Of a DNA stretch of 39,992 bases, positions 3,719 to 27,299 are shown in pieces. The stretch lies in NCBI GenBank assembly GCA_903946745.1, contig CAJAWW010000041.1, positions 1 to 39,992 of the forward strand, written 5' to 3'. Every line of letters starts with the position of its first letter. Positions within the stretch are counted from its first letter, which is position 1. This DNA is from an uncultured beta proteobacterium. Lineage in GTDB: Bacteria > Pseudomonadota > Gammaproteobacteria > Burkholderiales > Rhodocyclaceae. The translations under genes and the position numbers were made by a program. The notes beneath the pieces were generated by a model that saw only the letters and a list, made by a program, of their open reading frames with translations, ran no database searches and had not been told where the DNA came from.

Positions 3719-3732
3719 TTGACTTATATCAA
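3719..3732 (+). promoter_or_regulatory. FNR/ANR-type binding site upstream of ccoN
   Basis: TTGAC-TTAT-ATCAA matches the FNR consensus TTGAT-N4-ATCAA at 9 of 10 positions. Its centre is about 41 bases ahead of the start inferred from the TATCCT box at 3754-3759, the spacing of a class II FNR-activated promoter. This implies low-oxygen induction of ccoNOQP, as known for cbb3 operons in many Proteobacteria. Confidence 0.8.
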
Positions 3733-3848: not shown

Positions 3849-5285
3849 ATGCAATCGCAAGCGACATACAACTACAAGGTTGTACGCCAGTTCGCTGTGA
3901 TGACCGTAATTTGGGGCATCGTAGGGATGACGGTCGGCGTATTCATCGCCGCCCAGTTGGTGTGGCCGGAACTGAATGTGGTCGAGTATCTGAGCTACGG
4001 GCGCTTGCGTCCGCTACATACCAACGCGGTCATTTTTGCTTTTGGTGGTTGCGCGTTGTTTGCCACCTCCTACTATTGCGTGCAACGCACCAGCCATGTG
4101 ACGCTGTTCGCGCCGGCGCTGGCTGCCTTCACGTTCTGGGGTTGGCAGGTGGTCATCGTATTGGCGGCACTGTCTCTGCCACTGGGTTTCACGCAAGCCA
4201 AGGAATATGCAGAGCTTGAGTGGCCGATCGATATTCTGATTACCTTGGTGTGGGTGTCCTACGCCGTGGTGTTCTTCGGCACACTGGTCAAGCGCACGGT
4301 TTCCCATATTTATGTGGCGAACTGGTTCTTCGGTGGTTTCATTCTGACCGTCGCGGTGCTGCATCTGGTCAACAGCGCAGCCATTCCGGTGTTTGCCGAG
4401 GGCATGCTGTCGCCCAAGTCCTACTCGGCCTATGCCGGCGTGCAGGACGCAATGATTCAATGGTGGTACGGTCACAACGCCGTGGGCTTTTTCCTCACCG
4501 CCGGCTTCCTGGGCATGATGTATTACTTTGTTCCCAAGCAGGCCGGCCGGCCGGTGTATTCCTACCGGCTGTCGGTGGTGCATTTCTGGGCGCTGATTTT
4601 CACCTACATGTGGGCGGGCCCGCATCACCTGCACTACACCGCGTTGCCGGACTGGACGCAGTCGGTCGGTATGGTGTTCTCGCTGATCCTGCTGGCACCC
4701 TCGTGGGGCGGCATGATTAACGGCATCATGACGCTGTCGGGTGCTTGGCACAAGCTGCGCGATGACCCGATTCTGAAGTTCATGATTACCTCGCTCTCTT
4801 TCTACGGCATGTCCACGTTTGAAGGCCCGATGATGGGGATCAAGACCGTGAATGCGCTGTCGCACTACACCGACTGGACGGTGGGTCATGTGCACTCCGG
4901 TGCGCTGGGCTGGGTGGCGATGATTTCCATCGGCTGCATTTACTACCTGCTGCCACGCTTGTTTGGCAAAGCCGAAATGGCCTCGAAGAAATTGATCGAA
5001 GTGCATTTCTGGATCGCCACCATCGGCATCGTTTTGTACATCGCTTCGATGTGGATTGCCGGCGTGATGCAGGGTCTGATGTGGCGTGCAACCAACGTCG
5101 ATGGCACGCTGACCTACTCGTTCGTTGAGTCCGTTAAGGCAACTTACCCGTTCTGGACGATTCGTTTGCTGGGTGGTGTGTTGTTCCTGTCGGGCATGTT
5201 TATCATGGCCTTCAACATGTTCAAGACCATCGCCGGCGGCAAGTCGGTGAATGCCCCGGTGCTTGCCGCAGCCGGCGCGCATTGA
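3849..5285 (+). CDS. ccoN: cbb3-type cytochrome c oxidase subunit I (heme-copper catalytic subunit)
   Basis: A 478-residue, multi-span inner-membrane protein that reduces O2 to water with high affinity and pumps protons. Metal ligands are all visible: H57 ([10 protein letters not shown]) and H349 for the low-spin heme b, H347 for heme b3 ([10 protein letters not shown]), and H209 ([10 protein letters not shown]), H259 and H260 (AGPHHLHY) for CuB. Y253 in [10 protein letters not shown] is in the right place for the cross-linked tyrosine of C-family oxidases. The start at 3849 follows GAGGTG with an 8-base spacer. It is first in ccoN-ccoO-ccoQ-ccoP and sits under an FNR-type promoter. The length is normal for the family. 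Confidence 0.98.
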
Positions 5286-5316
5286 GACCGATTGCACAGA
5301 AAAGGAGCTATGAACC

Positions 5317-5928
5317 ATGTTGACGCATGACAAAATCGAGCGCAGCGTACCGCTGCTCATCATCCTGGTCATCCTGACGATCAGCGTCGGGGGGTTGGTG
5401 GAGATCGTGCCGCTGTTCTTCCAGAAATCCACCACAACCCCGACCAACGAACTGGTCAAGCCGTATGACGCGCTCCGTCTGGCCGGCCGGGATATCTACA
5501 TCCGCGAAGGTTGCTACAACTGCCATTCGCAGATGATCCGTCCGTTCCGTGCCGAGACCGAGCGCTATGGTCACTATTCGGTTGCCGGTGAGTTCGTCTA
5601 CGACCATCCGTTCCAGTGGGGTTCCAAACGTACCGGCCCCGATCTGGCGCGTGTGGGTGGTCGTTATTCCGACCAGTGGCATCGCGTGCATCTGTTGAAT
5701 CCACGCGATGTGGTGCAGGAATCGAACATGCCGGCGTATTCTTGGCTCGATCGGCCGCTGAAGGAGCCAAACATTGGCGCCAAGATGGCTGCGTTGCGTA
5801 AGGTGGGTGTGCCTTATACCGACCAGGAGATCGCTGAGGCACCGAAGGCCGTCCAGGGCAAGACCGAACTCGACGCAATGGTCGCTTACCTGCAAGGCCT
5901 GGGTCTCGCCCTCAAGCAGACGCGCTAA
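5317..5928 (+). CDS. ccoO: cbb3-type cytochrome c oxidase subunit II (mono-heme c)
   Basis: A 203-residue membrane-anchored monoheme cytochrome c that passes electrons from CcoP to CcoN. An N-terminal transmembrane segment spans about residues 11-34. The heme c motif CYNCH is at residues 66-70, followed by the family signature [10 protein letters not shown], and M138 in SNMPAYSW is the likely sixth heme ligand. The start at 5317 is supported by AAAGGAG at 5301-5307. It follows ccoN after 31 bases and precedes ccoQ after 3 bases. Confidence 0.97.
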
Positions 5929-9897: not shown

Positions 9898-11619
9898 ATG
9901 CAAACAAAGCCATCAACCACCCCCAGTGCAACTTGGAAGGCCGTCAGCCAGATGGTCGAGCGCCATGTGGATCCGGTCGGCATGACGACGCCCTTGATGC
10001 ATGCCCAAGTGGCGTGGATGTCTCACCCGCTGGAACTTGCCGATGCGATGTCTGCATTTTCAACGCGCGTGATGGAACTACAGATGCACTCCTGGCGCCG
10101 CGCACTCGGCATGGACAGTCAGGACGTTGAAACACCGAATCCCGATGACATGCGCTTTGCCGACCCGGTGTGGACCGACTCGGCAACGTGGGACATTGTG
10201 AAGAACTGGTACCTGCTGATGACCCATCAGGTGCAAGACATGCTTTACGAAACGCCGGGGCTCACCAATCGTGACCGCCGTCGCGCGGCATTCTGGTGGC
10301 GCAAATGGCTAAATGCAGTGGCTCCAACCAACTTTCTGCTGACGAATCCGGTCGCCATGCACAAGGCGGCAGAAACAAACGGCGAAAGTTTGCGCAAGGG
10401 CTTTGATAACTTTCTGTCCGATCTACAGGCCGGCGACGTGCAGATGACGCGTCCAACCGACTTTGTTGTGGGTAAAACGCTGGCGACCACCCCCGGCAAA
10501 GTGGTATTCCGCAATCATCTGCTGGAGGTAGTGCATTACACAAACAGCCAGCCCAAGGTGTACAGCAAACCCATTGTCATTGTCACGCCCTGGATCAACA
10601 AGTTTTATATTCTTGATCTGACGGCCAAAAAGAGCCTCATCAAGTATCTGGTCGAACAGGGTTTCGATGTGTACATCACGAGCTGGAAGAACCCCACAGC
10701 CGAGATGCGTGACGTCACGTTCGACGATTATCTGACCGACGGCATTGGTCGCATTATCGAAACCGCATGCAACATATCCGGCTCGCCAAAAGTGCATGCG
10801 GTGGGCTACTGCATTGGGGGTGCGGCGCTCACGGCATATATGGCGTGGGCGAATGCGCATTATGAGAAAAAAGAGGTGCCGGTTGAATCCGTCACGTTGT
10901 TTACCACGTTGATCGACTACCACCGGCCTGGCGATATCGAGGTTTTTCTTGACGAAAAAACCATCGAGTGGCTTGAAAAGTCGATGAACAAGAAAGGCTA
11001 TCTTGATGGCAAGGAAATGGCAGCCGCGTTTCGCCTGCTTCGCTCCAACAGCCTGATCTGGCATTACGTGGTGCGTGGCTATCTGTATGGTGAAACCCCG
11101 CCGCCGTTTGATGTGCTGTTCTGGAACATGGACGCAACCCGTATGCCGGCAGCCATGCATAGTTGGTACTTGCACAACTTCTACCTTGAAAATAATCTAA
11201 TCAAAAAAGATGCCTTGCATCTGGCAGGTGAAGCGATTGATCTGGAGCGAATTACTCAGCCCATGTATGTGGTGTCGGCGCAAGACGACCACATTGCGCC
11301 CTGGCGACAGGCTTTTCGGGTGGCTAATCTGGTGGCGAGCCCATGCCGGTTTGTGCTGTCCAGTTCCGGGCATATTCTCGGCATCATCAACCCGGTGGTG
11401 AATCCTCCCAAGCGCGAGTATCACGTCGGTTCGGCCGAACGCCACGATAGTGCCGATGTCTGGCATGAGCGTTCCGTGATGCACGCCGGCTCCTGGTGGG
11501 AAGACTGGATGGCCTGGCTCAAACCGCAATCCGGCAAACTGGTCAAGGCGCCTGCGGCGGGAACAACAAACTTCCCGGTGCTGGGCGACGCCCCCGGCAC
11601 CTACGTGCTGGAATCCTGA
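9898..11619 (+). CDS. phaC: Class I poly(3-hydroxyalkanoate) synthase
   Basis: A 573-residue alpha/beta-hydrolase-type polymerase that joins 3-hydroxyacyl-CoA units into PHA granules. The PHA lipase-like box is GYCIGG with nucleophile C305; D464 (SAQDDHIAP) and H492 (SSSGHILGI) complete the triad, with the same 28-residue Asp-His spacing as in the Cupriavidus enzyme. The N-terminal domain is normal for the class. ATG 9898 is chosen over the open frame from GTG 9856 because GGAG (9887-9890) lies 7 bases ahead. No phaA, phaB or phasin gene is nearby, so it is a stand-alone synthase. Confidence 0.94.
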   Translation: MQTKPSTTPSATWKAVSQMVERHVDPVGMTTPLMHAQVAWMSHPLELADAMSAFSTRVMELQMHSWRRALGMDSQDVETPNPDDMRFADPVWTDSATWDIVKNWYLLMTHQVQDMLYETPGLTNRDRRRAAFWWRKWLNAVAPTNFLLTNPVAMHKAAETNGESLRKGFDNFLSDLQAGDVQMTRPTDFVVGKTLATTPGKVVFRNHLLEVVHYTNSQPKVYSKPIVIVTPWINKFYILDLTAKKSLIKYLVEQGFDVYITSWKNPTAEMRDVTFDDYLTDGIGRIIETACNISGSPKVHAVGYCIGGAALTAYMAWANAHYEKKEVPVESVTLFTTLIDYHRPGDIEVFLDEKTIEWLEKSMNKKGYLDGKEMAAAFRLLRSNSLIWHYVVRGYLYGETPPPFDVLFWNMDATRMPAAMHSWYLHNFYLENNLIKKDALHLAGEAIDLERITQPMYVVSAQDDHIAPWRQAFRVANLVASPCRFVLSSSGHILGIINPVVNPPKREYHVGSAERHDSADVWHERSVMHAGSWWEDWMAWLKPQSGKLVKAPAAGTTNFPVLGDAPGTYVLES

Positions 11620-11701: not shown

Positions 11702-12322
11702 ATGGACAATTTGCGCACCGCCGGTGAATCCGGCAATGAACTGCGCCGCATCGTGCGCATCAATGAAGAAATCAAGAGCGTTGTCGCGACGGCGTTCAAG
11801 ATCAATCTAATGGCGATGAACGCCATATTTCTGGCCAAGCGCGCGGGTCAGTCGGCATTGGGTTTTGGTGTCTTGTCGAACGAATTGCGGCGCTTCGCCA
11901 CCGATCTGCAACAGCAGATGAGCACCCTGCGCGAAACCACCTACGGCAGCGTGTCCACCGTCACTTCTTTGCTGAAGCAAGCGCGTACCAGTCGCATTCT
12001 CAACCGCACGCGCAAGGAAAGCGATCCGGCGGGGCGCGTGATTGTCGATCAGTTGTTGCGTCAGCGCGACCTCTCAACACTGGCTCGCAGCAAAGAGCAG
12101 CTGGCGGCGCTTAACCGTCGACTTTCGCAGATGATCGCTGACACCACGCAACTGGTCGAGTTGGGTAGCGTACTCGCCCGTTCAGCCAAGATTGAGGCCG
12201 CTTACGGCGGTGGATTTTCTGCTTCGCTGATGCAAGTATCGAGTGACTTTGAGCGCACGATCGGCGATATTCAGCACTCACTGGAAAAACTAACCAAACA
12301 TCATGGGGATTCCCGAGCATGA
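11702..12322 (+). CDS. Small soluble chemoreceptor-tip-like (degenerate MCP signalling) protein
   Basis: A 206-residue, helix-rich protein with no membrane segment, HAMP or sensor domain. Residues 31-66 align without gaps to the hairpin tip of methyl-accepting chemotaxis proteins: the trimer-contact positions equivalent to Tsr F373, R388 and V398 are kept (F32, R47, V57), but those equivalent to E385 and E391 are L44 and Q50. A second, weaker tip-like motif lies at about 158-185 (SAKIEAAYGGGF). Only about 30 residues precede the first tip, so a normal antiparallel receptor hairpin cannot form. Its stop overlaps the start of the ODP gene (ATGA, 12319-12322), implying coupled synthesis. A role as signalling partner of the ODP protein is inference. 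Confidence 0.75.
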   Translation: MDNLRTAGESGNELRRIVRINEEIKSVVATAFKINLMAMNAIFLAKRAGQSALGFGVLSNELRRFATDLQQQMSTLRETTYGSVSTVTSLLKQARTSRILNRTRKESDPAGRVIVDQLLRQRDLSTLARSKEQLAALNRRLSQMIADTTQLVELGSVLARSAKIEAAYGGGFSASLMQVSSDFERTIGDIQHSLEKLTKHHGDSRA

Positions 12323-13059
12323 AAACAGCCCGCGTTATTTTTGAAGACGGCGCCCACAAGTGGCTTGCGATTGTCCGCGATAGCACTCGCCCCGAGTTCA
12401 TCATCGATACCAACGAATATCTGGTCATCAGTGATGGCGATGCGATCCTCCTCGATCCGGGTGGTGCCGAGATATTTCCTGCGGTGTTTTCTGCGATCAG
12501 CACCAGCTTTGATCCGCGCCGTATCAACAAGATATTTTCTTCGCACCAAGACCCGGACGTCATTTCATCGCTGGCAATGTGGCTGGAGTTCAACCCTGAA
12601 ATCAAGTGCTATCTGAGCTGGATGTGGCAGGGCTTTATTCCCCATTTTGGCGGCGGCGCTGACACTTTTGTGCCGATCCCCGACAATGGCATGGATATCG
12701 TTTTGGGCAGTCAGCGCATGCAGGCCATTCCTGCACACTATCTGCATTCTTCGGGGAATTTGAATTTTTACGATCCCAAGGCAAAAATCCTTTTTTCCGG
12801 CGATGTGGGCGCTGCATTATTGCCCCCCGGCGACGATAACCTCTTTGTCGAAAACTTCGATCAACACATACGCCATGCCGAGGCGTTTCACCGTCGCTGG
12901 ATGGGCTCTGAAAAAGCCAAACGCGACTGGTGTACGCGTGTTTCCGGCCTCGATATCGAGATGATGTGCCCGCAACACGGTGCCATTTATCGCGGGGCGG
13001 ACGTCAGGCGCTTCATTGATTGGTTCTCGCGGTTGGATATCGGGGTGCTGAAAAGCTAA
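12319..13059 (+). CDS. ODP-type di-iron metallo-beta-lactamase-fold protein (putative oxygen/iron sensor)
   Basis: A 246-residue protein with the metallo-beta-lactamase fold of flavodiiron proteins but no flavodoxin domain. Candidate metal ligands are H76, D78 and D80 (SSHQDPDV), H140 or H143 (PAHYLHSSGN), D162 (LFSGDVGA) and H220 (CPQHGAIYRG). The HQDPD form, instead of HxExDH, matches the ODP (oxygen-binding di-iron protein) family, of which a Treponema denticola member was described as an oxygen/iron sensor for a cytoplasmic chemoreceptor. Here the gene is coupled to a chemoreceptor-tip-like protein, so an analogous sensing pair is likely. NO or O2 reductase activity is less likely without a flavin domain, but a separate electron donor cannot be excluded. 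Confidence 0.8.
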   Translation: MKTARVIFEDGAHKWLAIVRDSTRPEFIIDTNEYLVISDGDAILLDPGGAEIFPAVFSAISTSFDPRRINKIFSSHQDPDVISSLAMWLEFNPEIKCYLSWMWQGFIPHFGGGADTFVPIPDNGMDIVLGSQRMQAIPAHYLHSSGNLNFYDPKAKILFSGDVGAALLPPGDDNLFVENFDQHIRHAEAFHRRWMGSEKAKRDWCTRVSGLDIEMMCPQHGAIYRGADVRRFIDWFSRLDIGVLKS

Positions 13060-13062
13060 AGC

Positions 13063-13076
13063 TTGATGCGGGTCAA
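13063..13076 (+). promoter_or_regulatory. FNR/DNR-type site upstream of the hemerythrin operon
   Basis: TTGAT-GCGG-GTCAA matches the FNR-family dyad at 9 of 10 positions; the GTCAA right arm is common in sites used by NO-responsive DNR/NnrR regulators. A GACAAT box at 13099-13104 lies at class II spacing. The site follows the ODP stop by 4 bases and precedes the hemerythrin gene. Confidence 0.72.
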
Positions 13077-13133: not shown

Positions 13134-13580
13134 ATGACAATTTCCTCCTGCATGTCCAGCGATCACACTCGTTGTGACGATATTTTTGCCCGCGCCGAAG
13201 AGGCCTGCACACAGGGCGACTGGGAGCGCGGTGCGCAGCTTTTGGGTGATTTTGTCACCGCGCTTGAAGCACATTTCGCATCCGAAGAAGACGTGCTCTT
13301 TCCGGCTTTTGAGACCGCTACCGGCATGCGTTCTGGCCCGACGCAGATGATGCGCGAAGAGCATCGCCAGATGCGTGATCTGCTGGCCAACATGAACAGC
13401 GCGCTGTCACAGCGTGACAGTGCAAATTTCAGCGGGGGCGCGGACACCTTACTGGTTCTGATGCAACAGCACAATATGAAGGAAGAGAACATTCTCTACC
13501 CGATGTGCGATCAGGCGCTGGGCGCAAGCGACATGGCCTCCGTGTTGCAGCAGCGTATCGGCACCACAAATCCCGCATGA
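13134..13580 (+). CDS. Hemerythrin HHE-domain protein
   Basis: A 148-residue four-helix di-iron protein. Ligands fit the hemerythrin pattern: H11, H47 with E51 (HxxxE), H77 (REEHRQM), and H113 with E117 (QQHNMKEENILYP). Proteins of this type bind O2 or NO or act in repair of nitrosylated iron centres. ATG 13134 is taken as start; ATG 13152 is an alternative that would keep all ligands, and neither has a strong Shine-Dalgarno. It is the first gene after the FNR/DNR-type site and overlaps the DUF2249 gene by 4 bases (ATGA). Two cysteines near the N-terminus (C6, C14) are not typical of simple O2 carriers and could be redox active. Confidence 0.9.
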   Translation: MTISSCMSSDHTRCDDIFARAEEACTQGDWERGAQLLGDFVTALEAHFASEEDVLFPAFETATGMRSGPTQMMREEHRQMRDLLANMNSALSQRDSANFSGGADTLLVLMQQHNMKEENILYPMCDQALGASDMASVLQQRIGTTNPA

Positions 13581-13801
13581 GCATTCGCATCATCGATGGC
13601 CGGATGATGGAGCCGCCCGAGCCGCTGGAGCAGACGCTGGAGGCGTTGGACACTTTGGCCGACGATGACGAACTGCTGCTGCTGCTTTACTGCCAGCCGC
13701 ATCCGCTTTATCAGGCATTACGCAAAAATGGTTATGTTTGGAATGACCATGTGTGCGACGACGGCACGCGCGAAATTCGCATTCGCAAGAGCGTGCACTG
13801 A
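13577..13801 (+). CDS. DUF2249 protein
   Basis: A 74-residue protein with the DUF2249 layout: a start strand (IRIIDGR), a PPEPLEQTLEAL helix, a hydrophobic strand (LLLLLYCQPHPLY) and a C-terminal strand region. It is related to the TusA/SirA-like small fold and is commonly encoded next to hemerythrins and NO-related genes; its biochemical role is not established. Translation is coupled to the hemerythrin gene through an ATGA overlap. Confidence 0.85.
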   Translation: MSIRIIDGRMMEPPEPLEQTLEALDTLADDDELLLLLYCQPHPLYQALRKNGYVWNDHVCDDGTREIRIRKSVH

Positions 13802-13872: not shown

Positions 13873-15189
13873 ATGCATCCGAATCTCTCTTTCGATCAGG
13901 CACCCCCTTTTTCCGTACCGTTACGTTTCTTTCTGCTAGCACCCTGGTTTGGTGTGGCGGCCGGCATTCTGTTTGCCCTGGAGGGTTCGGATGCGCTGGT
14001 TTCGCGCTGGACGAACGCAGCACTCACGCTGACCCATCTGCTCACCGCCGGCTTTATGCTGCAAGCCATGGCCGGTGCGTTGTTTCAGTTCATTCCGGTG
14101 GCCACCGGCGCTAACGTCTGGCGCCCGGGGCTGGTCGCCAGTGTGGCGCAACCGCTGCTGGTGGCAGGGCTGGTGTTGTTATGCGCCGGCTTTATACGAC
14201 ACGACTCTGCGCTGTTTCGGATTGCGGTGCCGCTCCTGGTCACCGGCGGCGGCGTCCTCGCGGCAGCATGGCTGCTGGCGCTGTGGCAGACACCGGGGAA
14301 AGGGGCAACGCTGACCGCGTTACGTTTTGCTGTGCTCGGGCTGGTGGTGACGATCGGTGTGGGGGCGGCACTGGCCGATGGGCTGGCGCGCGATCTGATC
14401 TTGCCTTATGCCACACTGACAGATATCCATATGACCTGGGGGCTGGGCGCATGGGCACTATTGCTGCTTGCCGGGGCTTCGTTTTACGTGGTGCCAATGT
14501 TCCAGCTAACCCCTCCTTACCCATTGTGGTTGACCCGCCTGTTTGCGCCCGCCGTGCTGGCGGTGACACTGCTGGGGTCTTTGCGGGTGACGCTGGATCA
14601 AAAGCCCGCCATGGAATTCACGCAGATGCTGCCAGGCGCGCTGCTGTTATTGCTGGCCGGCCTCTACGCCGTGACAACGCTCAATTTGCAAAGCCGCCGT
14701 CGACGTCGTGTGAGCGACGTCACCTTGCAATTATTTCGCTATAGCATGGGCGCCATACTGTCGGTCGTCGCGGTGGGAGGGCTGGCTTTACTGCCCATTG
14801 ATGGCAGCCAGCTTCGTCTTGCGCCACTATTCGGTGTGCTGGTACTGGCAGGGGTGTTTGTGTCGGCGATCAATGGCATGTTGTACAAAATTGTGCCCTT
14901 CATCATCTGGCTGCACCTGCAGCGTTACGGAGCCAGCCTTGCCCAAGTGAAACTGGTTCCCAATATGGGCGTGATGATTCCCAGCGGTGCCATGCTGGGG
15001 CAGGCACGCATGCACATGAGTGCGGTGGTTTTGCTGGTGCTGGCAGTTTGGTTTCCTGCGCTAAGTTTTGTGGCAGGGATGGTGTTTGCTGCATCGTGCG
15101 CCTGGCTTGGGTGGAATCTGATCGGTGCAGTACGCCGCTACGCCGGATTCAGGCGTCGCATTCTCGCCGCCTCTCTACAGATAACATAG
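13873..15189 (+). CDS. NnrS-like polytopic membrane protein (about 12 spans)
   Basis: A 438-residue, strongly hydrophobic inner-membrane protein with roughly twelve helices. Conserved-looking histidines sit in or next to helices: THLLTAGFMLQAMAGALFQF near residues 55-74, TDIHMTWGLG near 184, and FIIWLHLQRYG near 345. The pattern of helix-embedded histidines and overall size resemble NnrS, a heme- and copper-containing membrane protein tied to NO stress, but the match is by pattern only and the gene may belong to a sister family. It lies 71 bases after DUF2249 and shortly before SirB2, in a cluster plausibly induced with the hemerythrin gene. The start at 13873 has only a weak ribosome site. 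Confidence 0.65.
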   Translation: MHPNLSFDQAPPFSVPLRFFLLAPWFGVAAGILFALEGSDALVSRWTNAALTLTHLLTAGFMLQAMAGALFQFIPVATGANVWRPGLVASVAQPLLVAGLVLLCAGFIRHDSALFRIAVPLLVTGGGVLAAAWLLALWQTPGKGATLTALRFAVLGLVVTIGVGAALADGLARDLILPYATLTDIHMTWGLGAWALLLLAGASFYVVPMFQLTPPYPLWLTRLFAPAVLAVTLLGSLRVTLDQKPAMEFTQMLPGALLLLLAGLYAVTTLNLQSRRRRRVSDVTLQLFRYSMGAILSVVAVGGLALLPIDGSQLRLAPLFGVLVLAGVFVSAINGMLYKIVPFIIWLHLQRYGASLAQVKLVPNMGVMIPSGAMLGQARMHMSAVVLLVLAVWFPALSFVAGMVFAASCAWLGWNLIGAVRRYAGFRRRILAASLQIT

Positions 15190-22863: not shown

Positions 22864-23958
22864 ATGAACACATCCATCGACCGCTATAACCAGATCGCCG
22901 ACCGTGAGTTGCTGCTGGAATTTCGCGATAGCCTGACAGATCAGGCCGCCGCACTGGAGCGACAGGTGGCCAACCTGCGCCGCGATTCCAATGACCGCGA
23001 CTCCATCGCAGCGCTGTTCCGCGCCCTGCACACCATCAAGGGCGATGCGGCAATCTGTCGCTTTGAGCTTGGCGTGCGCATTGCACATCCGATTGAGGGG
23101 TTGCTGGTGCAGATGCGTGAAGGTACTCTGCATTTTTCACCCCTGCTCGCCGAAGCCGTTTTGCTGGCGCTGGATCGACTGGAACTTGCCGTTGAAGTGC
23201 TGCTGGCGGGGCGCTCGATGGATTCTCTGCGTATTGGCGCACTGTTGGATGGACTTGATCGTCTTGGCAACAGCGCGGGTAGCGCGGCGATCGACAACAG
23301 CGCCGTGTCGCTGATCGAAGCGGTGACCGGATTCCGTCCGGCCGCCGCGCCAGCCAAGGTCACACCCAAAGAAGCCAGCCGCGGCCATGATCGTTCCGCT
23401 GATCTGCGCTTCTTCAAAAGTCTCGCTTTGCTGTTTGAAAACCGCTCCCCCTTGTACAAGGGACGCAGTGGCCGGCTGCTGCGTCTTGCCCTTGACACCA
23501 ATGCGCGTGGCGGAAAACCTGCTGATCCGGTTCAGCTCGAAGCCGCAGTTTATTTGCACGACGTCGGCATGATGTTTCTGCCAGAACCGCTGTGGTTGAA
23601 GGCGGGCGAACTCAGCGATGACGAGCGCACGCGATTGCGTGAGCATCCGAAATACGGTGCCGGACTGGTCGAGCGGATGGAAGGCTGGCAGGAGGCTGCC
23701 ACAATTATTGCGCAGCATCACGAAATGGCCGATGGCGGTGGATATCCTGCCGGTCTGAAAGAAAACCAGATCGTCCCCGGCGCGATGATTCTGGCCATCG
23801 CCGACGCCTTCGAGGCGGTCACGCTCAAACATAACGAACGCGGCGAAGGCCGCTCGCTGGTGCGGGCGATTGCCGAAGTCAATGCCAGCGACAAGCAGTT
23901 TTCAACACACTGGATTGGTCACTTCAATCAGGTCATCCGTGGCGTGGTGGAAGGCTGA
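22864..23958 (+). CDS. HPt domain fused to a degenerate HD-GYP-type domain
   Basis: A 364-residue soluble protein. Residues about 10-120 look like a histidine phosphotransfer domain with H56 in LHTIKGDA. Residues about 180-360 resemble an HD-GYP cyclic-di-GMP phosphodiesterase: H232-D233 (LHDVGMM), H261, H285-H286, G293-Y294-P295 and D314 (IADAFEAVT). Two expected residues differ: the first His of the domain (usually GHSxR) is R201 in KGRSGRL, and the Lys of HDIGK is Met. Activity as a phosphodiesterase is therefore doubtful. It may act as a binding module gated by phosphotransfer. It precedes fbp, separated by a tandem repeat and a -10 box. Confidence 0.75.
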   Translation: MNTSIDRYNQIADRELLLEFRDSLTDQAAALERQVANLRRDSNDRDSIAALFRALHTIKGDAAICRFELGVRIAHPIEGLLVQMREGTLHFSPLLAEAVLLALDRLELAVEVLLAGRSMDSLRIGALLDGLDRLGNSAGSAAIDNSAVSLIEAVTGFRPAAAPAKVTPKEASRGHDRSADLRFFKSLALLFENRSPLYKGRSGRLLRLALDTNARGGKPADPVQLEAAVYLHDVGMMFLPEPLWLKAGELSDDERTRLREHPKYGAGLVERMEGWQEAATIIAQHHEMADGGGYPAGLKENQIVPGAMILAIADAFEAVTLKHNERGEGRSLVRAIAEVNASDKQFSTHWIGHFNQVIRGVVEG

Positions 23959-23985
23959 GTTCAGGCTGAGTTCGGCCTGAGTTCG
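23953..23985 (+). repeat. Three 11-bp tandem units at the end of the HPt/HD-GYP gene
   Basis: GGCTGAGTTCA, GGCTGAGTTCG and GCCTGAGTTCG follow each other, and a further partial unit starts at 23986. The stop TGA (23956-23958) lies in the first unit. The tract ends 11 bases before the TATAAT box. Confidence 0.85.
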
Positions 23986-23996
23986 GCCTGTCTGGC

Positions 23997-24002
23997 TATA
24001 AT
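23997..24002 (+). promoter_or_regulatory. Candidate -10 box of the fbp promoter
   Basis: A perfect TATAAT, 28 bases ahead of the fbp ATG. The -35 region would fall in the 11-bp repeats and is poor, so an activator may be needed. Confidence 0.5.
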
Positions 24003-24030
24003 CGACGACCTTAATCACGCACTGCAGATC

Positions 24031-25044
24031 ATGCGAAAAATCAGCCTCTCCCGCTTTCTGATCGAAGAGCAACGCGAGAAAAATGTCATTTCTTCCGAAC
24101 TTCGGCTGTTGATCGAAGTCGTCGCCCGCGCCTGCAAGGGAATCTCGATCGCCATCGGCAAAGGCGGTCTGGCCGGCGTCCTGGGCTCCGCCGGCAGCGA
24201 CAACATCCAGGGCGAGGTGCAGAAAAAACTTGATGTAATCTCCAACGAGATTTTGCTTGAAGCCAACGAATGGGGCGGCCACCTCGCCGCCATGGCGTCC
24301 GAAGAAATGGAACTGCCGCACCCGATCCCGAACCGCTACCCGAAAGGCGAATACCTGCTGCTGTTCGATCCGCTTGATGGCTCGTCGAATATCGACGTGA
24401 ACGTTTCGGTCGGCACCATTTTTTCGGTACTGCAATGTCCTGAAGGCGTCACACCGGATGAACAGGCCTTCCTGCAACCCGGTGTCCGGCAATTGTGCGC
24501 CGGCTATGCCGTCTATGGGCCGACGACCCTGCTGGTCCTGACACTGGGGGACGGCGTCAATGTATTCACGCTTGACCGCGAACTCGGTAGCTTCGTGCTG
24601 ACGCAAGAGAACGTCCGCATCCCCGAAGACACGCGCGAATTTGCCATCAACGCCTCCAACGCACGCTACTGGGAAGCACCGGTCAAGCGGTATGTGGACG
24701 AAATGCTGGCCGGTAAAGATGGCCCGCGCGGGCAGGATTTCAACATGCGCTGGGTCGCCTCGATGGTCGCCGACGTGCATCGCATTCTCAGCCGCGGAGG
24801 AATCTTCATGTATCCGATTGACAGCAAGACCGTCGCTCAAGGTGGAAAACTGCGTCTGATGTACGAAGCCAACCCGATGGCCTTCATCGTCGAGCAAGCG
24901 GGCGGTGCCGCCACCAACGGCCACGAGCGGATTCTGGACATACAACCGCAGCGTCTGCATCAACGCGTCCCCGTCATTCTCGGTTCAAAAAACGAGGTAG
25001 CGCGCGTGACCGCCTTCCACACCAACACCGCGAGTGCCAGCTGA
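24031..25044 (+). CDS. fbp: Fructose-1,6-bisphosphatase class I
   Basis: A 337-residue metal-dependent phosphatase that converts fructose 1,6-bisphosphate to fructose 6-phosphate in gluconeogenesis or the Calvin cycle. Class I motifs are clear: SEEMELP (metal-binding), [11 protein letters not shown], and [15 protein letters not shown] near the end. The length is normal. The TGA overlaps the next ATG (TGATG at 25042-25046), so the response regulator is translationally coupled to it. Confidence 0.97.
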
Positions 25045-26660
25045 TGGATCTCTCAGGAAAATCCGGCCTGCTGATCGACGACATTCCCGAAATGCGCACC
25101 ACCGTGCGCATCCAGCTCGCCGATGCAGGGCTTGAACGTTGCGATGCCGCACGCAACATCAAAGAGGCCATCGACCGCCTGACGGCCAATCGCTACGATC
25201 TCATCATTTGCGACTACAACCTCGGCCAGGGTGCCGACGGTCAGCAGTTGCTCGAACTGGTGCGCCGGCAGCAACTGCTGCCCATGTCGACGGTCTTTCT
25301 GATGATTACCGGCGAAACCGGTTACGAACAGGTATCCACGGCCGCAGAGTACGCCCCCGACGACTACCTGCTGAAACCTTTTACTTCCGAAACCTTGCGC
25401 ACCCGTCTGAGTCGGATTCTTGACAAGAAAGAAGCCCTCAAGCGTCTCTATCAGCACATGGGTGAAAAGGGCGATCGCAGCAAGGCGCTGGCGATGTGCG
25501 ATATTTTGATCGAAGAAAAATCCCGCTACGCGCTCGACATCTTGCGAATCAAGGGCGATCTGTTGCTGGCACAAAAGAACCCCCTTGCTGCGCTGGCACT
25601 TTACGAGAGCGTTCTGGCGCAACGCGCCACGCCGTGGGCTGAGGTCGGGCGCGCCCGCGCCTTGGCGGCCGATGGCCAGACAGACGCTGCGAAGGAACAC
25701 CTAGCCCGCGCGCTGACTGCCTATCCAAACTATTTGGCAGCCTACGATTCGCTGTCCAAAATTCTTGAAAAAACCGACAAAGTCGCGGCTCAGCAACTGG
25801 TCGAACAAGCACTCAAGGTTGCCCCGTCAACACAGCGCCAGCGGCAACTGGGTTCTCTGGCGCTAGAAAATAAAGATTTCACACGCGCCGAAGAAGCCTT
25901 CCGCCGAACCGTCGAGAAAGACCGCACCGGTTTCTTCAAGAGCCATGACGACTACGCCGGGCTGGCCAAAAGTTACGTTGAGCAGGGAAAGACCAAAGAA
26001 GCACTGGCCACAGTCAGCGACATGAGCCAGCACTTTCGCAAATCTCCCGAGCTCACCGCACGTCAGGCCGCCGTCGAAAGTGTGGTGCATATCCGTTCCG
26101 GAAACACCGCCGCCGCCGCCGCCGCACTGGAGCGCGCGCTGGCTGTCAGCAAACAGGGCGGGCTTGATCCCACCACCGCACTCGAAGTCGCGCAGGCCTG
26201 CTTCGCCGCCGGAAAAACCGACGAAGCCAAGAACATCATCAAGGCCGTGGCGGAAGACCACCACGAAAGCGAAGAAGTCATCGCCCAGGCGCGTTCCGTA
26301 TTTGCCGCTGCCGGCATGCAGGCAGAAGGCGATCTGTTCCTTGAAGCCACGCGCAAGCAAATGATCAAGCTCAACAACGACGCCGTCGCCATGGCCAAGG
26401 CGGGCGATCTCGATACCGCCATTTCCATGCTTGAGGAAGCGGCGAATCGCCTCACCAACAACTGTCAGGTGGCCGTCAATGCGGCACTGGCCATTTTGAT
26501 GCAAGTGCAAAAACACGGACCAACGCCCGAGCGTTTTGCCCGCGCCCAAGGCTACATCCTACAGGCTCGTCGCGCCAATCCCGAGCATCCTCGCCTCGCC
26601 GAAGTCACCGGCTTCTATCGAAAACTAGCGCCAGCCGGAACACCCATCATCGAGGGCTAA
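25044..26660 (+). CDS. Response regulator with TPR-repeat C-terminal region
   Basis: A 538-residue cytoplasmic protein. Residues 5-125 form a receiver domain: acidic pair D12-D13, phospho-acceptor D57 (IICDYNLG), Thr in MITGETG and Lys in LLKPFTSE. The rest is a long run of tetratricopeptide-like helical pairs with no DNA-binding or enzymatic domain, so output is likely through protein contacts. It is coupled to fbp by a 1-base overlap and followed after 3 bases by a small histidine kinase, its probable partner. Similar receiver-TPR proteins occur in Pseudomonas and Betaproteobacteria, mostly without a known role. Confidence 0.88.
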   Translation: MDLSGKSGLLIDDIPEMRTTVRIQLADAGLERCDAARNIKEAIDRLTANRYDLIICDYNLGQGADGQQLLELVRRQQLLPMSTVFLMITGETGYEQVSTAAEYAPDDYLLKPFTSETLRTRLSRILDKKEALKRLYQHMGEKGDRSKALAMCDILIEEKSRYALDILRIKGDLLLAQKNPLAALALYESVLAQRATPWAEVGRARALAADGQTDAAKEHLARALTAYPNYLAAYDSLSKILEKTDKVAAQQLVEQALKVAPSTQRQRQLGSLALENKDFTRAEEAFRRTVEKDRTGFFKSHDDYAGLAKSYVEQGKTKEALATVSDMSQHFRKSPELTARQAAVESVVHIRSGNTAAAAAALERALAVSKQGGLDPTTALEVAQACFAAGKTDEAKNIIKAVAEDHHESEEVIAQARSVFAAAGMQAEGDLFLEATRKQMIKLNNDAVAMAKAGDLDTAISMLEEAANRLTNNCQVAVNAALAILMQVQKHGPTPERFARAQGYILQARRANPEHPRLAEVTGFYRKLAPAGTPIIEG

Positions 26661-26663
26661 ACC

Positions 26664-27299
26664 ATGGAAACACTCGTCGCCGCCGCCATTCACGACGCCA
26701 AAAACGGCCTCAACGCCCTCAATACCTGGCTTGGCGAAGCCCATCAGCAGGCACCCTCGCCCGCACTCGATGCCGCCATGGAAGTCTCAACGCGCATTAG
26801 CGCGCAACTGGTCGAACTGCTGGCCATGTATCGTGCCGACGAAGGTTCACTGCGCCTCGCGATCGAAGATCATCACTTGATGGATTTTTGCTCCGAAACC
26901 GTTGCCGAGGTAATTCCTCCGGCCGGCACCTCCAGCCGCGTAACGCTTGCGCTTGACCCCGACCACAGCCCGGAAGTATGGGCTTTTGACGCCTATCAGG
27001 TGAAACTGGTGTTGCAGGACGCACTGCGCAACGCGCTGCGTCACGCCCGCACCAGTGTGGTGCTGGACGTCACCGGCGAACCCGGCGGCGGCGTGCGTTT
27101 TTGCGTCAGCGATGACGGATCAGGATTCCCCGCCCCCGTGCTGGAAGGCGCTTTGAGCACCATGAACAGCCACAGCAGCGGCCTCGGCTTGCGCTTTGCC
27201 CGCGTCATCGCTGCCCACCACGCCACACCGGACGGCCGCCATGGCCGACTGGAACTAAGCAATCAGAACGGCGCGTGTTTTGCGTTGGTTTTACCCTGA
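26664..27299 (+). CDS. Small soluble histidine kinase
   Basis: A 211-residue kinase with no membrane segment and no input domain. H10 lies in an H-box (IHDAKNGLNAL), which is followed by a dimerisation helix pair and a HATPase_c domain: N box DALRNALRHA, G1 SDDGSGFP, G2 SSGLGLRFAR. It starts 3 bases after the response regulator with GAGGG at 26652-26656 as ribosome site. Because the phospho-His is at the extreme N-terminus, signal input must come from another protein, perhaps the TPR region. The 59 bases between it and the convergent aldolase gene hold no clear terminator. Confidence 0.88.
   Translation: METLVAAAIHDAKNGLNALNTWLGEAHQQAPSPALDAAMEVSTRISAQLVELLAMYRADEGSLRLAIEDHHLMDFCSETVAEVIPPAGTSSRVTLALDPDHSPEVWAFDAYQVKLVLQDALRNALRHARTSVVLDVTGEPGGGVRFCVSDDGSGFPAPVLEGALSTMNSHSSGLGLRFARVIAAHHATPDGRHGRLELSNQNGACFALVLP

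Follow-up and report, generated by a model that had tools for sequence, protein, structure and literature searches.

A candidate single-chain chemoreceptor tip encoded with an oxygen-binding di-iron protein in Rhodocyclaceae

How might an oxygen-binding di-iron protein (ODP) report to a chemotaxis kinase when the gene coupled to it encodes a receptor-like protein of only 206 residues? This question is raised by a two-gene locus in a 39,992-nucleotide (nt) stretch of an uncultured member of the Rhodocyclaceae (contig CAJAWW010000041.1, positions 1 to 39,992; here, the window). The earlier note, made from the sequence of the window alone, had described a 206-residue protein with the hairpin tip of a methyl-accepting chemotaxis protein (MCP), overlapping by ATGA a gene for a metallo-β-lactamase (MBL)-fold protein, and the open reading frames at 11702-12322 and 12319-13059 agree with that description (Table 1). 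We refer to the two genes as tip and ODP. On balance we think it probable that they form an O2-sensing input module, possibly responsive to iron or nitric oxide (NO), in which a single-chain tip relays the signal to a CheA/CheW array.

The ODP gene and its tip partner

Judged by its sequence, the 246-amino-acid (aa) product of the second gene is a di-iron protein of the ODP family, as the earlier note had proposed. In a profile search, it matched PF19583 at 252.7 bits (cut-off 27.2) over the whole domain (positions 1-194/194), and the nearest solved structures were the ODPs 6qrq (E 2e-67) and 6qnm (E 5e-61). All six di-iron ligands (H-x-D-x-D, H, D, H) are present as H76, D78, D80, H143, D162 and H220, and they line up with those of the solved ODPs and of a flavodiiron protein. 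HQDPD, D162 and H220 had been correctly named as ligands before, with H143 overlooked. In an alignment of 35 sequences, the six ligands were kept in 24/24 tip-coupled and 11/11 other ODPs. The tip-coupled ODPs were monophyletic, all 24 falling into one clade (support 0.86) in a tree of these 35 sequences, for which 10 of 30 fetched ODPs had been dropped by a simple motif filter. Iron and oxygen are both bound by a characterised ODP (PMC6978683, PMC7666581). The sensory input of the pair may be O2, iron or NO, of which we favour O2.

The two genes are conserved as neighbours in relatives, again as had been expected. Among 200 genomes of the order, 18 encoded tip orthologs (139-276 bits), with an ODP gene directly downstream in 18/18; the same 200 genomes gave 65 ODP matches above 200 bits. 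When 399 genomes sampled from the whole phylum were searched, ordinary MCPs reached 62 bits at most, and tip orthologs turned up in this order alone. Named genomes yielded 80 tip loci, mostly from Rhodocyclales (Zoogloea, Azospira, Azonexus, Sulfuritalea, Propionivibrio and Ca. Nitricoxidireducens), and in 79 of these the ODP gene came next on the same strand. The gap between the genes was -4 to +27 nt in all 79 loci and exactly -4 nt in 25 of them. This adjacency is far above chance expectation, and the ATGA overlap makes translational coupling of the two genes likely. The sole tip gene of the 80 without an adjacent ODP (L120:1988-2473) is shortened to 162 aa and lies on a short contig of a metagenome-assembled genome (MAG), directly preceding a hemerythrin gene; this exception is perhaps a deletion or a MAG error. 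Two outcomes had been set down beforehand as refuting the pair, the lack of an ODP match and the lack of conserved adjacency; both were tested and neither holds. Other ODPs, about 40% identical, were found directly downstream of full-length MCP genes in L031, L032, L040 and L042, and these MCPs have canonical tips and hydrophobic segments. Therefore, both types of couple coexist in the order.

The upstream gene encodes a relative of the MCP signalling tip. Residues 20-94 of its product matched the MCPsignal profile at E 1e-7 (32.4 bits, just below the Pfam cut-off of 34.6), and only profile positions 35-112 of 172 were covered. All 18 scanned orthologs matched the same profile at E up to 0.1 (best 5e-11). 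The tip-family profile matched solved MCPs at E 1.7e-11, and tip motif 1 matched the MCPs of its own genome with an hhalign E of 6.6e-19. Six residues of this motif (N40, A41, G54, F55, E61 and R63) are invariant in 98/98 sequences of the family. A chance match or a pseudogene was ruled out by conservation across these 98 sequences. In Tsr numbering, which we assigned to the tip residues of both halves of the protein, half 1 retains N381, R388, G395, F396, V398, E402 and R404 and has lost E385, E391 and G393. GExxRGF-like half-1 tips persist in some divergent members (e.g. GEKSRGF in L078, from the che operon of genome G014) and the window clade reads GQSALGF, which suggests progressive loss. 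The window protein has no sensor domain, HAMP domain or methylation helices, about 45 residues precede its tip, and it does not contain the full kinase-control module of MCPs. Campylobacter CheO, reported to be without a known sensory domain (PMC9665402), was considered as a relative and rejected.

The C-terminal half of the tip protein carries a second tip-like motif, which the earlier note had overlooked. Two blocks stand out as conserved in the alignment of the 98 family members. The first is the MCP tip; the second, block 2 (G..LARSAKIEAAYGG....L.QVS..F), is tip-like. Block 2 matched MCP tips with an hhalign E of 1.7e-4, compared with 8.7e-3 for the best of 200 column permutations and 0.05 for the reversed profile. 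With a larger, redundant alignment, half 2 gave E 1.4e-3, yet still beat 150 permutations and a hemerythrin decoy. In agreement, the best match of an ungapped tip matrix in half 2 fell in the same register in 16/18 members. Three residues of tip motif 2 (A162, I164 and E165) are invariant in 98/98 sequences. Half 2 retains I384, E385 and A386 and has lost R388, E391, F396 and E402. Going by this half-specific retention, a covalent pseudo-dimer could specialise its halves.

The second tip and a single-chain bundle both have computational support, the bundle from structure prediction. AlphaFold modelled the window protein with a predicted local distance difference test score (pLDDT) of 91.9 and a predicted template modelling score (pTM) of 0.81; a second, divergent member, 26% identical to it, gave a pLDDT of 90.9 and a pTM of 0.83. 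The helices of this second model (residues 14-52, 58-111, 114-166 and 170-201) are arranged with turns at both motifs. The top Foldseek matches were designed single-chain four-helix bundles (TM-score ~0.6, root-mean-square deviation ~5 Å), and a single straight helix of 105 residues does not fit such matches well. In an up-down-up-down arrangement of the helices, the two tips would share one end of the bundle, as they do in a receptor dimer. Taken together, alignment and models suggest that the partner of the ODP is a receptor-tip pseudo-dimer in a single chain, folded as a four-helix bundle.

Chemosensory operons and the possible route to CheA

In four relatives (genomes G014, G196, G079 and G071) the pair lies within a chemosensory operon, and CheA and CheW are present in 18/18 pair genomes. 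The earlier note had suggested that the pair may signal to something other than CheA; given these operons, we found no support for a target elsewhere. The Pfam-confirmed order in G014 is cheA-mcp-cheW-tip-ODP-cheR-cheD-cheB, and G196 has the same order plus a STAS gene in front. The same che gene set was found by tblastn in G079 and G071, with the cheW and MCP genes of G071 in a different order. The gene order that marks F7 systems (cheD between cheR and cheB, STAS upstream) was thus seen by Pfam in G014 and G196, and by tblastn in G079 and G071. In the G079 operon a PAS-GGDEF-EAL gene stands between ODP and cheR (L177:9902-12427), hinting at a link to cyclic di-GMP. The CheA type of these operons occurred in 13/18 pair genomes and in 40/182 others, an association (Fisher p 2.7e-5) that is inflated by shared ancestry. 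The window genome encodes this CheA type on contig C116, where the gene adjoins those for a STAS protein and an MCP and its product is 58% identical to the CheA of G014; a further relative is encoded on contig C59.

We propose the following mechanism. The di-iron site of the ODP would bind O2 and the state of the ODP would change. The overlapping 206-aa gene would supply its dedicated receptor, cut down to the kinase-contacting tip, whose two tandem hairpins in one chain would build a four-helix bundle corresponding to the end of a receptor dimer. Retained in half 1 is the C-helix surface G395-F396-V398-E402-R404, which in receptors faces CheW and CheA P5; half 2 retains the I384-E385 position of the trimer contact. 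The ODP would dock on this mini-receptor, which would take its place within or alongside trimers of dimers and thereby modulate the CheA/CheW complex; the target would most likely be the STAS-CheA system that is operonic with the pair in relatives. The coupling of the genes, the identity of the ODP and its ligands, the homology of half 1 to MCP tips and the che operons of four relatives are established by the results above; the sensed ligand, the contact between ODP and tip, insertion into the array, the direction of the effect and the roles of the two halves are what we infer here. A more specific version is offered tentatively, as a possibility that we hold to be somewhat the weaker bet: the tips of the pseudo-dimer may split the work of a homodimer, one presenting the outward-facing surface for CheW/CheA and the other making the trimer contact on the inside, and together they may form an asymmetric, adaptation-free plug linking a di-iron O2 sensor to an F7-type CheA array where other bacteria use the haem-PAS protein Aer2.

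Several results weigh against a pseudo-dimer tip acting on CheA. Compared directly, the two halves of the tip protein gave no significant alignment, so the claim of a duplication rests on the comparison of each half with MCP tips, and the homology of the second tip is moderate at both E values given above. Classical tip residues are lost from both halves (E385 and E391 from half 1; R388 and F396 from half 2), and DSSP assigned an uninterrupted helix through tip 1 of the window model. The pair lies outside any che operon in 14/18 genomes of the order, in the window and, within the flanks covered, in all 80 named loci. Moreover, the operon CheA type is absent from three complete pair genomes (G004, G013 and G054), where another CheA must serve. 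The structural points would also fit a short soluble receptor of the ordinary kind, resembling Tm14 and forming homodimers through tip 1, with the C-terminal half as a return helix rather than a second tip and CheA still as the target. The closest solved relatives are indeed soluble MCP chains, one of which (3g67) has 213 residues; this also removes the earlier objection that the partner is too short for a normal receptor. The modest half-2 similarity and the unbroken helix 2-106 of the window model point the same way. However, residues 65-199 of the 3g67 chain align to profile positions 4-141, with the tip in mid-chain, whereas here the tip lies near residue 50 of 206. Half 2 also has its own invariant I-E-A motif in the MCP register, and the second model combines two turns at one end with a compact four-helix fit. 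We therefore regard a Tm14-like homodimer as unlikely, if still the best placed of the alternatives.

The genes around the pair raise a different prospect, namely that it works outside chemotaxis, for example by tying O2 or NO status to polyhydroxybutyrate (PHB) metabolism or to the hemerythrin-DUF2249 NO-stress genes, with the tip fold as a reused scaffold. The synthase gene phaC, the hemerythrin gene hhe and the DUF2249 gene are neighbours in about half to two thirds of loci, DUF2249 (COG4309) is tied to NO reductase regulons (PMC1274295), and the loss of classical tip residues is also in line with such a role. We nevertheless judge it quite improbable: the pair persists in Zoogloea-type loci that lack phaC and the hemerythrin-DUF2249 genes, the FNR/DNR box of the locus belongs with hhe and not with the pair, and both the che operons of the four relatives and the CheA and CheW found in every pair genome speak for a chemosensory role. 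The ODP could also be an enzyme, an O2 or NO consumer akin to flavodiiron proteins, which share its fold and aligned metal ligands, and the tip protein would then merely position it at the array. This we consider very improbable, since the Pfam search of the 246-aa protein matched only ODP and Lactamase_B, with neither a flavodoxin nor a rubredoxin domain, and flavodiiron matches scored far below PF19583 (20.7 bits for flavorubredoxin). In addition, a characterised ODP functions as a sensor (PMC7666581, PMC6978683).

Neighbouring genes in the window

In the window the pair stands alone, with phaC on one side and the hemerythrin gene on the other (Table 1). The FNR/DNR-type box follows the ODP gene in 47/80 loci, compared with ~1.7 loci expected; ahead of tip, it was found in one locus of 80. 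On these grounds we considered and dropped the idea that FNR/DNR controls the pair. The box belongs to the downstream hemerythrin gene and probably marks the end of the unit of the pair, and the hemerythrin and DUF2249 genes are probably a separate unit. The box precedes genes for the hemerythrin, the DUF2249 protein, a membrane protein and SirB2, a cluster that probably constitutes a unit of a low-oxygen or NO regulon. Within it, 13873-15189 encodes a hydrophobic protein of 438 aa with a probable membrane location, which lies next to the hemerythrin and DUF2249 genes in 44/80 loci; it had no Pfam or NCBIfam match and is a candidate for an uncharacterised NO- or oxygen-related family. Elsewhere in the window, a second exact FNR-type box (3719-3732) lies upstream of cbb3 oxidase genes (COX1 and FixO at 3849-5928). 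An unusual signalling neighbourhood at 22864-27299 encodes an HD_5 protein with an Hpt domain, FBPase, a response-regulator-TPR protein and a small HATPase protein.

Table 1. Features of the tip-ODP locus and its surroundings in the window
Feature	Position	Strand	Details
Single-chain, double-tip receptor-like 'tip' protein	11702..12322	+	206 aa; predicted four-helix bundle; family of 98 sequences
Tip motif 1, residues 32-66, FKINLMAMNAIFLAKRAGQSALGFGVLSNELRRFA	11795..11899	+	MCP hairpin tip
Tip motif 2, residues 153-184, ELGSVLARSAKIEAAYGGGFSASLMQVSSDFE	12158..12253	+	Diverged second MCP-tip-like hairpin
Overlap of tip stop and ODP start, ATGA	12319..12322	+	Seen in the sequence
ODP, oxygen-binding di-iron protein, MBL fold	12319..13059	+	246 aa; PF19583, E 3.2e-75
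PHB synthase phaC, conserved upstream neighbour	9898..11619	+	PF07167; 52/80 loci
FNR/DNR-type box, TTGATGCGGGTCAA, between ODP and hemerythrin genes	13063..13076	+	After ODP in 47/80 loci
Hemerythrin HHE protein, conserved neighbour	13134..13580	+	PF01814; 46/80 loci
DUF2249/COG4309 protein, conserved neighbour	13577..13801	+	PF10006; 43/80 loci

Comparison with known systems

The ODP shares its MBL di-iron fold and ligand positions with flavodiiron proteins (the Thermotoga flavoprotein and rubredoxin:oxygen oxidoreductase) but lacks the flavodoxin domain needed for turnover. For the tip protein, the best solved matches of the family profile were 3g67, 3ur1 and 4jpb, which we take to be structures of the Tm14-type soluble chemoreceptor. 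Like the tip protein, these are short, soluble and without a sensor domain. In contrast to the one central tip of the Tm14 homodimer, the tip protein has a first tip close to its N-terminus, followed by another tip-like hairpin. Chains with two signalling units also occur in nature, in soluble single-chain MCP signalling domains of Rhodospirillum centenum and others, whose function was stated to be unknown, and have been engineered as single-chain Tsr dimers (Tsr-Tsr), which signal (PMC4692393). The tip protein differs from both in keeping the tip region only, in the complementary divergence of its units and in its operonic link to a defined O2/Fe sensor.

Operons that join ODP genes to genes for MCPs and for other signalling proteins are already known (PMC7319448). 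In Treponema denticola, the ODP TDE2498 has a cognate sensorless receptor, TDE2496, that can modulate CheA activity (PMC7666581). Close to the pair described here are this couple of ODP and soluble receptor and the Thermotoga ODP. The kinship to Treponema that the earlier note had drawn is supported, as are its readings of the partner as reduced and of the host group as betaproteobacterial. Compared with TDE2496, the partner is about 200 aa long, has two tip motifs per chain and is without the methylation region and several classical tip residues. In some relatives, unlike in the Treponema couple, the pair is part of a che operon, with cheW before it and cheR after it. ODP-receptor couples, natural single-chain MCP domains and F7 clusters are thus known, and what appears to be new is their combination: in the literature covered, we found no description of a tip-only single-chain receptor dedicated to an ODP in F7-like operons, although the supplements of the 2019 PNAS ODP paper and of Wuichet and Zhulin 2010 might list the subgroup.

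In the tip family, a minimal single-chain receptor tip has a sensor partner that is defined, and some relatives also provide a defined kinase system. Because the halves of the protein are covalently fixed and have diverged, it could show, as a natural experiment, which tip residues the inner and outer faces of the trimer of dimers require. The tip protein is also a very small candidate for reconstituting oxygen control of CheA, and the pair is found in cultured bacteria (Zoogloea, Azospira and Azonexus).

The nearest likeness in gene order is to F7 clusters with Aer2, a haem-PAS oxygen sensor. The stage-1 cluster runs anti-sigma-factor antagonist, cheY, cheA, cheW, aer2, cheR, cheD, cheB, and the function of ancestral F7 systems has been described as unclear (PMC7184735). 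There aer2 lies between cheW and cheR-cheD-cheB, and the tip-ODP pair takes that place. In these operons a di-iron ODP with a mini-receptor replaces the haem-PAS Aer2, and an extra transmembrane MCP is encoded between cheA and cheW.
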